Below are positions 2,506 to 61,640 of a stretch of 64,000 nt of DNA, one piece after another. The translations under genes and the position numbers were made by a program. Origin of the DNA: Erinaceus europaeus (taxonomy: Eukaryota; Chordata; Mammalia; Eulipotyphla; Erinaceidae); NCBI RefSeq assembly GCF_950295315.1, contig NC_080168.1, positions 71,910,008 through 71,974,007 of the forward strand. The letters are read 5' to 3'. Position 1 is the first letter of the stretch. Each line of letters starts with the position of its first letter. The notes beneath the pieces were generated by a model that made no database searches, was not told the origin of the DNA, and worked only from the letters and a program-made list of their open reading frames with translations.

Positions 2506-2601
2506 TTTTTGGGACAAAATAGATAGAACTGGAGATAATGCTCAGTGAAATGAGAAATGAAAGACAACTAAGGAATGATTTCATTCATGTGAAATGAAAA
2601 C

Positions 2602-2662
2602 GGATGGATGGATGGATGGATGGATGGATGGATGGATGGATGGATGGATGGATGGATGGATG
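2602..2662 (+). repeat. (GGAT)n, about 15 units
   Basis: Followed by ~95 bp of impure purine-rich sequence. Confidence 0.97.
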
Positions 2663-2884
2663 GGCAGGTGATGGAGGGAGAGGGAAGGAGAGGGGGGAGG
2701 GAGGAGAAGGAAGAACGGAGGGAGGAAGGGAAGAAAAGTGTGTATGGAAGAAAGGAAAGAGAAAAAGAAGGATAAATAAAATTAAAGTGTTTCAAAGACT
2801 TTGTGAGAATTATGTTGGCTATAAAGTGGTTTGGTGAGGACACAGAAATTTGGGGGTAGGTATGGTGTGGAACTATACAATCTT

Positions 2885-3143
2885 TTTTTTTTTAATTTAT
2901 TTCCTTATTGGGGAATTAATGTTTTACATTCAACAGTAAATAGAATAGTTTGTACATGCATAACATTCCCCAGTTTCCCATTTAACAATACAACCCCCAC
3001 TATGTCATCTATCATCCTTCATGGACCTGTATTCTCCCCACCCACCCACCCCAGAGTCTTTTACTTTGGTGTGATATGCCAATTACATTTCAGGTTCTAC
3101 TTGTGTTTTTGTTTCTGATCTTGTTTTTCAACTTCTGCCTGAG
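2885..3143 (-). mobile_element. 5'-truncated L1 3' end, type A, with TSD
   Basis: The reverse complement matches 40983-41176 of the L1 and then continues CATGTACAAACTATT...ATTAATTCCCCAATAAGG with a poly(A), seen as T at 2885-2893. A 16-bp TSD, GGAACTATACAATCTT, is at 2869-2884 and 3144-3159. It is inserted in an older L1. Confidence 0.93.
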
Positions 3144-23571: not shown

Positions 23572-24310
23572 AGAACTCTAAATTTTAAAGGCATCTTCAA
23601 TGATACAAATCAAATGACAAAGTAGACTAAAACAAAAATAGACCAACGGGACTACATCGAATTAAAAATCTTCTGCAGAGCAAAAGAAACCACCACCCTT
23701 ACAAACTGGGTGAAGATCTTTACATGCCAATCATCAGACAAAAGGCTAATAACCAAAATATATAAAGAGCTCACCAAACTCAGCAACAAGAAAACAAATG
23801 ACTCCCATCCAAAGATGGGGAGAGGATAAACAGAATATTCACCAAAGATCCAAAAGGCCAACAAATATTTAAAAATGCTCCATGTCATTGACTGTCAAAG
23901 AAACACAAAGACAACAATAAGGTACCACTTCACTCCTGTGAGAATGTCACAGGTCAGAAAAGGTAGGAACAACAATGCTGGAGAGGTTGTGGGGATAAAG
24001 GAACCCTTCTGCACTGTTGGTGGGAATGTAAATTGGTCCAACCCCTGTGGAGAGCAGTCTTGAGAACTCTCAGAAGGAAATGAAATGGATTCTTAAAGAT
24101 ATAGTCATGTATAAGGGTAGACTCAAACTAATTAGCTAATCTCTTACAGAAAGGACTAGAAAGGGCTATCCAGGATATATTCAAAGTCTTAAGTGGAAAA
24201 GACATGTACCCAAGAAAAGAATACCTTATCCTGCTAATACCTATCTTGCAAATCAGATTTGAAGGAGGGACAGAAAGCTTAAGAGATAAGACAAGCAATA
24301 GCTAAAGGAA

Positions 24311-25262: not shown

Positions 25263-25600
25263 GGGGAGTCAGGCGGTAGCGCAGCAAATTAAGCGCACAT
25301 GGCACAAAGCACAAGGACTGGCATAAAGAACATTGCTGGGTGCTGGGCAGTAGCGCATCAGGGTAAGCACATATAGTGCAAAGCAAGAACAGATGTAAGG
25401 ATTCCGGTTCAAGCCCCCAGCTCCCCAACTGCAAGGGAGTCGCTTCACAGGCGTTGAAGCAGGTCTGCAGGTGTCTATCTTTCTCTGTTTTCCCCTCCTG
25501 TCTCCTATTCAACAATGACAACATGACTAACAACTACAACAATAAAAAACAAGGGCAACAAAAGGGAAAATAAATAAATTATATATATATATATATATAT
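25263..25600 (+). mobile_element. dimeric SINE-A with TSD
   Basis: A SINE-A head (A box, no B box; 25264-25322) joins through AAAGAACATTGCT to a complete SINE-A of the TAGCGCATCAGG subtype (25338-25575) with an (AT)n tail. The 10-bp TSD CCCTGAAGGC (25253-25262, 25601-25610) bounds the whole unit and lies in the 3' module of an older SINE-A. Confidence 0.85.
25575..25600 (+). repeat. (AT)n
   Basis: Tail of the dimeric SINE. Confidence 0.95.
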
Positions 25601-25667
25601 CCCTGAAGGCAAAAAGAGAAAAAAGTTTTCTCTACTTAATGATTTTAAAAAAAGATAGATTAAGGAC

Positions 25668-25785
25668 TAGGGAAATAGCATAATGGCAATGAAAAAAAAA
25701 GACTTTCATGCCTAAGGCACCAAAGGTGTCAGGTTCAATCTCCAGAGCCAGAAATGAGCGGTGCTCTGGAAAAAAATAAATGGTT
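25668..25785 (+). mobile_element. SINE-C
   Basis: AGCATAATGGCAATG head. Confidence 0.82.
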
Positions 25786-25873
25786 TTTCAAAAGATACAT
25801 GGAGGGCAGGGAGCCTTCACACAACCAGTTCTGAGACCTCAGTACACCAAATGAGAGTACTATGTACCGAGAA

Positions 25874-26062
25874 AACTATGTTGCATCGCTGGGGAGCCAG
25901 AGACGACCCGAACTGCCCCTGCGGCTACAGACAGACTATGACCCACATAGTCAACGACTGCCCCCTCTCCAGATTCAAAGGAGGTCTCGAAACTTTACAT
26001 CAGGCTCAACCTGACACTGTTGTCTGGCTACGGAAGAAGGGCAAACACTAGAAGAAGAAGAA
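25874..26062 (+). mobile_element. second copy of the non-L1 LINE, 3' end only
   Basis: Translates to HRWGARDDPNCPCGYRQTMTHIVNDC and on to LRKKGKH, stop, then GAAGAAGAAG. It differs from the copy at 60735-61495 at about six of 185 positions. Homology starts at about 25874. Sequence at 25790-25873 is open in the same frame but has no match in the other copy. Confidence 0.85.
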
Positions 26063-26212
26063 GTGGAGAAGGGGAGATAGAAAGGGAGAGAGACACCTGC
26101 AGCATCACTTCATCACTTGTGAAGCTTTCCACATGCAGGTGGGGACCTTGAACCTGCATCCTTGAGCACTGTAATGTGTATGCTTAAGCAGGTGCACTAC
26201 CACCTGGCCCCT
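26063..26212 (-). mobile_element. SINE-B fragment
   Basis: Starts mid-body directly after the non-L1 LINE tail. Confidence 0.83.
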
Positions 26213-40100: not shown

Positions 40101-41000
40101 TACTTAGAGGAAAATATTGGAAGAACTTTTTTCCGCATAAATTTTAAAGACATTTTCAATGAAACGAATCCAATTACAAGGAAGACTAAGGCAAGTATAA
40201 ACCTATGGGACTACATCAAATTAAAAAGCTTCTTCACAGCAAAAGAAACCACTACCCAAATCAAGAGACCCCTCACAGAATGGGAGAAGATCTTTACATG
40301 CCATACATCAGATAAGAGTTTAATAAGCAACATATATAAAGAGCTTACCAGACTCAACAAGACAACAAATAACCCCATCCAAAAATGGGGGGAGGAATTG
40401 GACAGAATATTCACCACAGAAGAGATCCAAAAGGCCGAGAAACACATGAAAAAATGCTCCAAGTCTCTGATTGTCAGAGAAATGCAAATCAAGACAACAA
40501 TGAGATATCACTTCACTCCTGTGAGAAATGTCACACATCAGAAAAGGTAACAGCAGCAAATGCTGGAGAGGATGTGGGGTCAAAGGAACCCTCCTGCACT
40601 GCTGGTGGGAATGTCAATTGGTCCAACCTCTGTGGAGAACAGTCTGGAGAACTCTCAGAAGGCTAGAAATGGACCTACCCTATGACCCTGCAATTCCCCT
40701 CCTGGGGATATATCCTAAGGAACCCAACACATCCATCCAAAAAGATCTGTGTACACATATGTTCTTGCAGCACAATTTGTAATAGCCAAAACCTGGAAGC
40801 AACCCAGGTGTCCAACAACAGATGAGTGGCTGAGCAAGTTGTGGTATATATACACAATGGAATACTACTCAGCTGTAAAAAATGGTGACTTCACCGTTTT
40901 CAGGCGATCTTGGATGGACCTTGAAAAAATCATGTTGAGTGAAATAAGTCAGAAACAGAAGGATGAATATGGGATGATCTCACTCTCAGGCCGAAGTTGA
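37182..41000 (+). pseudogene. L1 ORF2 (endonuclease and reverse transcriptase), one stop and two frameshifts
   Basis: ORF2p nicks target DNA and reverse-transcribes L1 RNA. The endonuclease domain has [27 protein letters not shown] and SDHSGM. The reverse transcriptase has [53 protein letters not shown] and the catalytic FADDM (near 39280). The C-terminal CX3CX7HX4C motif (CWRGC...H...C) lies near 40560-40615. Breaks: TAA at 38886-38888 where L1 normally has a glutamine codon after GM; a frameshift near 40525 (GAGAAATG against GAGAATG in the related copy near 23940); another near 40760. The frame then ends at 40998-41000. Confidence 0.95.
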
Positions 41001-60630: not shown

Positions 60631-60734
60631 AATTTGAACCCAAAAACAGGCAAAATACTATGCATTATATGATAGATAGTAACACTCTCAAACACAGTGA
60701 AAAAGAAAAAAAGAAACATGTGGGGCCAGGTGGT

Positions 60735-61495
60735 CTTCTTCTTCTAGCGTTTGCCCTTCTTCCGTAGCCAGTCAACAGCATCAGGTTGAGCCTGATGTAA
60801 AGTTTCGAGACCTCCTTTGAATCTGGAGAGGTGGCAGTCATTGACTATGTGGGTCATAGTCTGTCTGTAGCCGCAGGGGCAGTTCGGGTCGTCTCTGGCT
60901 CCCCAGCGATGGAACATAGCGGCGCACCGGCCATGGCCTGTTCGATGATAGCGATTGAGGAGGGCCCGATCATAACGTGCTAGGTCAAAGCCGGGTTGAC
61001 GCTTGCAGGGGTCTGTGATGAGGTGTTTGTTCTTTACCTCAGCTGACTGCCAGCTCTGTTTCCAAGAGACTGGAACAGAGAAGTTCAGTGTAGGCGTAGG
61101 GGACCAGATTGGGTGACGAGACATCAAGCGTTGGACAGGGTGGGCGAAGATATCCGCGTATATTGGCAGGTCCGGTCGAGGGTAGACGTGGGAAATGAAC
61201 TTAGATGATGCCGCATCCCGACGAATATCTGGCGGGGCGATGTTGCTAAGAACTGGCAGCCATGGAACCGGGGTGGAACGGATGCATTGGATCGACCTTC
61301 CCGTGGTGCATCTCGTGAGTACCCATTCATTGGGGAAACTGACGATCCTTCCTAGCCGACTGAATCCACATGGATCCCAGTCACTTTCAAAGCCAGCAAC
61401 AAGCAGCTCCTGCCAGCTTTCAAGCTGTTGGTCCTGCTCTTCGAGTCCTCCAACTTAATGTTGAGGGGCTGTCCTTTGCCAAACGCGTTCTTATT
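60735..61495 (-). mobile_element. non-L1 LINE, 5'-truncated, (GAA)n tail, with TSD
   Basis: The minus strand carries the C-terminus of a non-LTR retrotransposon polyprotein: a WLPVLSNIAPPDIRR-like segment near 61270-61225, then GFDLARYDRALLNRYHRTGHG and CPCG...H...C (CX1CX7HX4C), ending at a TAG near 60746 and (GAA)n. The last 127 codons are open (60744-61127). The 12-bp TSD GGGCCAGGTGGT is at 60723-60734 and 61496-61507, inside a SINE-A. L1 ORF2 in this window has CX3CX7HX4C, so this is a different clade. Such termini are familiar from invertebrate LINEs; the exact clade is not settled here. High CpG retention suggests a recent insertion. Confidence 0.85.
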
Positions 61496-61640
61496 GGGCC
61501 AGGTGGTAGTGCGGCAGGTTAAACACACATGGCGCAAAGTGTAAAGACCAGCACAAGGATCCCAGTTCGACTCCCTGGCTCCCTAGCTAAAGGAGGTGGG
61601 GTCTCTTCACTGGCGGTGAATCAAGTGTGTAGGTGTTTTT

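Follow-up and report, generated by a model that had tools for sequence, protein, structure and literature searches.

A 5′-inverted LINE copy in the genome of the hedgehog Erinaceus europaeus, very probably a twin-primed insertion of Vingi

We describe here a 761-bp insert at positions 60735 to 61495 of a 64,000-nucleotide (nt) stretch of the genome of the hedgehog Erinaceus europaeus (RefSeq assembly GCF_950295315.1, contig NC_080168.1, positions 71,910,008 to 71,974,007 of the forward strand), referred to below as the window. The insert is very probably a single young, 5′-inverted copy of Vingi, a long interspersed nuclear element (LINE) already known from hedgehogs, formed by twin priming. 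It consists of both termini of one element, placed head to head in opposite directions, with the 2.3 kb between them absent. An exact 12-bp direct repeat, GGGCCAGGTGGT, at 60723 to 60734 and 61496 to 61507 encloses the whole insert; enclosure by one target-site duplication and inversion of the 5′ part relative to the 3′ part are both present in this copy.

The duplicated sequence, left copy included, derives from the head of a tRNA-type short interspersed nuclear element (SINE), which we take to be of hedgehog type. The host-SINE sequence occurs many times in the window and flanks the insert on both sides. Its right flank has 57 matches in the window (itself included), 11 of which begin inside the duplicated 12 bases, and the matches other than itself are 66 to 88% identical. 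A preliminary description, made from the sequence alone, had placed a piece of a non-L1 LINE with a 12-bp duplication inside a SINE, and the exact repeat, the CX1CX7HX4C motif and the SINE-head matches bear this out. It had also read all 761 bp as a LINE end on the minus strand, which is correct for 60735 to 61284; the remainder, 61280 to 61495, is a 5′ terminus on the plus strand, and the inversion was overlooked.

The 3′ part lies on the minus strand at 60744 to 61284 (60735 to 61284 with its tail) and corresponds to nt 2530 to 3073, tail included, of L032, a long copy from the same genome. Its open C-terminus comprises 179 codons (60747 to 61283), longer than the 127 first proposed, and ends in the stop codon TAG (60744 to 60746). 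An (AAG)3 tail (60735 to 60743) follows immediately, leaving nearly no 3′ untranslated region. Seven normal-orientation copies printed for comparison have 3′ ends reading ...GCTAGAAGAAG. In these copies as in the window, no more than about 9 nt separate the stop codon from the element's 3′ end, and any 3′ recognition signal would therefore overlap coding sequence. A motif search located the CX1CX7HX4C motif, CPCGYRQTMTHIVNDC, at 60834 to 60881 on the minus strand; elsewhere in the window it occurs only in a second Vingi copy (25914 to 25961), and it was found in 0 of 10 shuffled windows. The CX3CX7HX4C end typical of L1 ORF2 is found at 23976 to 24029 and 40561 to 40614, outside the insert, and the element carries CX1CX7HX4C instead. 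Thirteen proteins match a 200-amino-acid (aa) C-terminal query at 40 to 53% identity. Pfam gave no match for the 236-aa stop-to-stop frame, its 200-aa part or a 52-aa frame on the plus strand; domains were recognized only in the long copies elsewhere in the genome. About 170 bp of the 236-aa frame is antisense 5′ sequence, open by chance because 61280 to 61495 is the 5′ terminus in the opposite orientation.

The inverted 5′ terminus (61280 to 61497, plus strand) corresponds to nt 1 to 218 of L032, its final 2 nt, GG, being shared with the target duplication. Within the insert (61280 to 61495) it comprises a 90-nt leader, the start codon and the first 42 codons of the LINE open reading frame (61370 to 61495; MDPSHF...LRVLQLNVEGLSFAKRVLI), an N-terminus that continues into the endonuclease domain. 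Both halves of the insert match, on opposite strands, a single 996-aa protein, P0016, which has endonuclease and reverse transcriptase families: 26 of 45 aligned positions are identical between its residues 1 to 45 and the plus-strand start, and its residues 819 to 996 are 50% identical to the 3′ part. At the inner (inversion) junction, nt 1 to 218 are joined to nt 2530 to 3073 with a 5-nt overlap, GGATG (61280 to 61284), that either piece accounts for; the outer junction has the 2-nt overlap GG. A hepatitis delta virus (HDV)-like ribozyme at the 5′ end was considered, but the window has no Rfam match above threshold, and 61230 to 61520 gave a single weak snoRNA match at E values up to 10. The 5′ leader folds much like shuffled sequences (z −0.56).

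As the preliminary description had anticipated, the hedgehog genome holds many longer copies. Full-length copies measure about 3.07 kb and carry both pieces in one orientation; seven normal-orientation copies start exactly at GGATGCATTGG and extend to a common 3′ end. RVT_1 (PF00078) is present in the open frames of all three long copies analyzed. One of these, L036, also has the endonuclease families PF03372 and PF14529, so that it unites an APE-type endonuclease and reverse transcriptase in one frame, a feature of the Vingi clade, and PF00078 is the match in L032 and L038. The L032 frame runs through the reverse transcriptase to about 200 nt short of the element end, and the L038 frame from the reverse transcriptase to the element end. 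Vingi is not known to have an RNase H domain, unlike its sister clade Ingi, and none was detected at E values up to 0.1 in the frames of L032 (725 aa) or L038 (499 aa), in a search without a positive control. The element thus resembles Vingi-1 of hedgehogs in host, youth, multiple copies, non-L1 type, endonuclease with reverse transcriptase, and no RNase H by Pfam; the window copy differs in being a 761-bp, 5′-inverted remnant. Among the normal-orientation copies within L032 to L070, 23 have the first 10 nt intact, 3 of 26 with other first bases having been dropped. The base before nt 1 is G in 21 of these and the preceding pair is TG in 16; either the element really starts two bases upstream, with TGGGATGC, or the G was copied from the RNA cap.

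The window copy is young, as first proposed. In a 550-bp alignment of the 3′ part, it differs from the majority of 19 other copies at 5 of 547 sites and by a 3-bp insertion. Two of the five sites are CpG decay (each in 1 of the 19), and the other three differences also occur in 3, 4 and 8 of the 19 copies, which themselves diverge from the majority by 1.1 to 3.9%. The 19 were picked nonrandomly from fetched copies with a nearly complete 3′ part, and 7 are the best matches to the window copy. The mammalian substitution rate is about 2.2 × 10−9 per site and year; at this assumed rate, the insert would be roughly 2 to 4 million years old. The many retained CpGs noted earlier are confirmed by an observed/expected ratio of 0.74 in the insert versus 0.28 in the window.

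Related copies were sought in the 2.72-Gb hedgehog genome. With the whole insert as the query, 40 of 1,573 first-look candidates were scored, giving 42 matches. Besides the window, 40 matches fall within insert positions 208 to 761 (39 long, at 95 to 98% identity, and one short extra piece) and one covers positions 1 to 216, adjoining a match of the 208-to-761 type; none of the 41 spans both. With the 5′ piece alone, the best 40 of 1,365 candidates were scored, all at 99 to 100% identity (rounded); 26 are in normal orientation and 14 are inverted (13 of 39 without the window). A 15th inverted copy, L009, came from the whole-insert search, outside the 40. Both breakpoints are readable in 12 of the 15, the other three ending beyond the fetched stretch. 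The pairs (end of inverted piece/start of 3′ part) are 218/2530 (window), 283/1069, 297/1799, 526/2100, 221/2621, 313/2270 (L009), 238/2052, 376/2780, 304/2745, 625/593, 216/214 and 212/2903. All 12 differ, and the inverted copies are therefore separate events. Eight inverted copies (the window copy, L009, L042 to L046 and L048) were examined at both ends, and target duplications of 10 to 12 bp surround seven of them. The outer-junction overlaps in these seven are 2 nt in the window copy, L009 and L042, 5 in L044, 3 in L045 and L046, and 0 in L048, that is, 2 to 5 nt in six of seven. The chance of at least six of seven overlaps reaching 2 nt under random joins is 9 × 10−5, or 3 × 10−4 if L043 is counted as a miss.

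The head-to-head structure, the duplications and the outer overlaps fit twin priming, which is best known from L1. In L1, cDNA synthesis on a single RNA is primed from both target ends, and the stretch between that is not read is lost (PMC2912911, PMC4245944); the process was described by Ostertag and Kazazian in 2001, as cited in a later paper. Outer overlaps of 2 to 5 bp are reported in about 70% of 5′-inverted L1 copies (PMC2912911). From the structure, duplications, overlaps and different breakpoints observed here, we infer the following order of nicking, annealing and end joining. The element's endonuclease would have nicked the head of the SINE, and reverse transcription would have proceeded from the (AAG)n 3′ end of a full-length Vingi RNA over about 544 nt. 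A second cut, made before the first cDNA was complete, would have freed the other target end, which would have annealed to the same RNA near nt 217 to 218 (GG) and primed a second cDNA to the RNA 5′ end. The two cDNAs would then have been joined at GGATG, RNA nt 219 to 2529 between them never having been copied. The missing 2.3 kb can be explained without a deletion inside the template, because in the copies with breakpoints 216/214 and 625/593 the inversion leaves no gap or comes with a small duplication. The window copy has no reverse transcriptase and cannot move by itself.

The likeness to twin-primed L1 extends to the inverted 5′ segment, duplications of at least 10 bp (seven of eight copies) and outer overlaps (six of seven). 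The Vingi copies differ in that the element is not L1, in that 0.8 to 2.7 kb between the pieces is absent in 10 of the 12 readable copies, and in that the inverted piece extends to the true 5′ end, which follows from the query used. Several observations weigh against the interpretation as twin-primed Vingi. L043 is without a duplication of at least 6 bp, and L048 lacks an outer overlap. The six inner junctions printed are mixed, with overlaps of 5 (window), 3 (L045) and 2 nt (L043), a flush join in L044, and extra nucleotides in L009 (3) and L042 (5). When the seven best other 3′-part matches were traced upstream, all proved to be 5′ truncations and none was inverted; one of them, L014, has an extra 3′ piece behind it. 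The proportion of 14 in 40 is not the share among all copies, because the 40 are the best scoring of 1,365 and were bound to include the 5′ end by the query chosen. The name Vingi, finally, rests on host, age, domains and literature rather than on alignment to a Vingi reference sequence.

The same structure could have been inherited from a rearranged master, the copy belonging to a nonautonomous subfamily that was already head to head. The N in the family name Vingi-1N3_EE presumably marks internally deleted, nonautonomous families. For that family, 311 copies diverging by less than 1% have been published (PMC3183009), and L064 is an internally deleted copy. A master element is nevertheless improbable: the 12 readable breakpoint pairs all differ, and the 218/2530 junction appears in no other copy, either among the 42 whole-insert matches (from the best 40 of 1,573 candidates) or among the 5′-piece matches (best 40 of 1,365). 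Two separate Vingi insertions landing head to head, or an inversion and deletion after insertion, have a slimmer chance still. Tandem or nested Vingi pieces do exist (L034 and L014), yet a single duplication surrounds the whole insert, a repeat scan found none between the halves, and head-to-head arrangements with other breakpoints recur at 13 more of the 40 places.

The preliminary description had suggested a non-L1 LINE, unexpected as a young element in a placental mammal, with a possible horizontal origin. The search for protein relatives used residues 200 to 725 of the L032 frame; 1,401 proteins among 7,988 scored passed an E value of 0.001, and 120 of them were listed. One of these, P0014, is 95% identical, and the other 119 are at 45 to 61%. 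The organisms named, in a few of the 120 rows, are a sand fly, a pseudoscorpion, an aphid and an eel, with no mammal among them, in line with the earlier expectation of relatives outside the mammals. A FastTree phylogeny of 112 rows took 111 of the 120 proteins, the near-identical P0034 to P0040, P0042 and P0043 (nine rows) being left out. In it, four rows at 52 to 59% identity form a group with the hedgehog element and P0014 (local support, 95). Judged by its sequence, P0014 is probably hedgehog DNA in a sample. It is a 582-aa protein from a 2,072-bp public contig, its start resembles antisense C-terminal sequence joined to reverse transcriptase, and it is possibly another rearranged hedgehog copy. 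The L032 frame found no relative among viral contigs and 12 distant matches (below 60% identity) among plasmids, three of the five listed being annotated as group II intron proteins.

In favor of horizontal entry, the named relatives are arthropods and a fish at 45 to 52% identity, and the nearest tree rows besides P0014 are 52 to 59% identical; this pattern is compatible with horizontal transfer and with vertical descent alike. The 2011 Vingi paper (Kojima, Kapitonov and Jurka, Mol Biol Evol 28:17) reportedly found no relative in 33 other mammals. Vingi is counted among likely horizontal transfers in PMC3183009, which lists Vingi-1N3_EE for Erinaceus europaeus. The element was on record before, however: Vingi was published from hedgehogs in 2011 (Kojima, Kapitonov and Jurka, as cited in PMC5753468, PMC3183009, PMC3747384 and PMC3391268). 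Fossils assigned to Vingi have also been reported in the human genome, which speaks against horizontal entry and makes an old presence in amniotes possible. A previously unrecorded non-L1 LINE acquired horizontally by the hedgehog lineage is accordingly very improbable. Contaminant DNA, an alternative the preliminary description had left standing, is practically out of the question: nothing found supports such an origin, the insert is flanked at either end by SINE sequence that recurs many times in the window, and the scored matches fall on many large contigs of the same genome.

As an element, the insert adds nothing to the published, already known hedgehog Vingi family; only the proportion of inverted copies among those that retain a 5′ end has some novelty. 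We lean slightly toward the view that a non-L1 LINE of hedgehogs makes twin-primed 5′ inversions about as often as L1 does in apes, so that frequent inversion would not be peculiar to the L1 enzyme. Among human- or chimpanzee-specific L1 insertions, 30.9% are 5′ inverted (PMC2912911). In the cell assays described in PMC4245944, 5′ inversion occurred almost only with L1 in human cells. The zebrafish ZfL2-1 and Nimb-2_DR elements assayed there are likewise non-L1 LINEs using target-primed reverse transcription; unlike them, hedgehog Vingi shows inversions in 14 of 40 scored copies that have a 5′ end. If the view is right, frequent Vingi inversion would follow from the mammalian cell setting together with a target overhang of about 10 to 12 nt. 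The hedgehog genome provides a set of naturally occurring non-L1 inversions whose junctions can be read, and with it a means of telling the part of the LINE from that of the host. Among the 10 of 36 matches listed in a literature search, papers with more of the terms coming first, none joined Vingi, inversion and twin priming as whole words, and the top match contained two of the three. The main text of a 2025 survey of the African hedgehog is without the name Vingi and gives 4,476 I-Jockey and 47,737 unclassified LINE copies (PMC12026660).

In L034 and L014, Vingi 3′ ends follow one another in tandem, or a further 5′ end lies inside a longer copy; these arrangements may reflect template jumping or nested insertion. 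The second Vingi copy in the window (25876 to 26060, plus strand) is 5′ truncated. A direct-repeat scan of 25350 to 26150 found no duplication around it; it retains the last 185 bp of the element at 96.2% identity and has its own (AAG)n tail.
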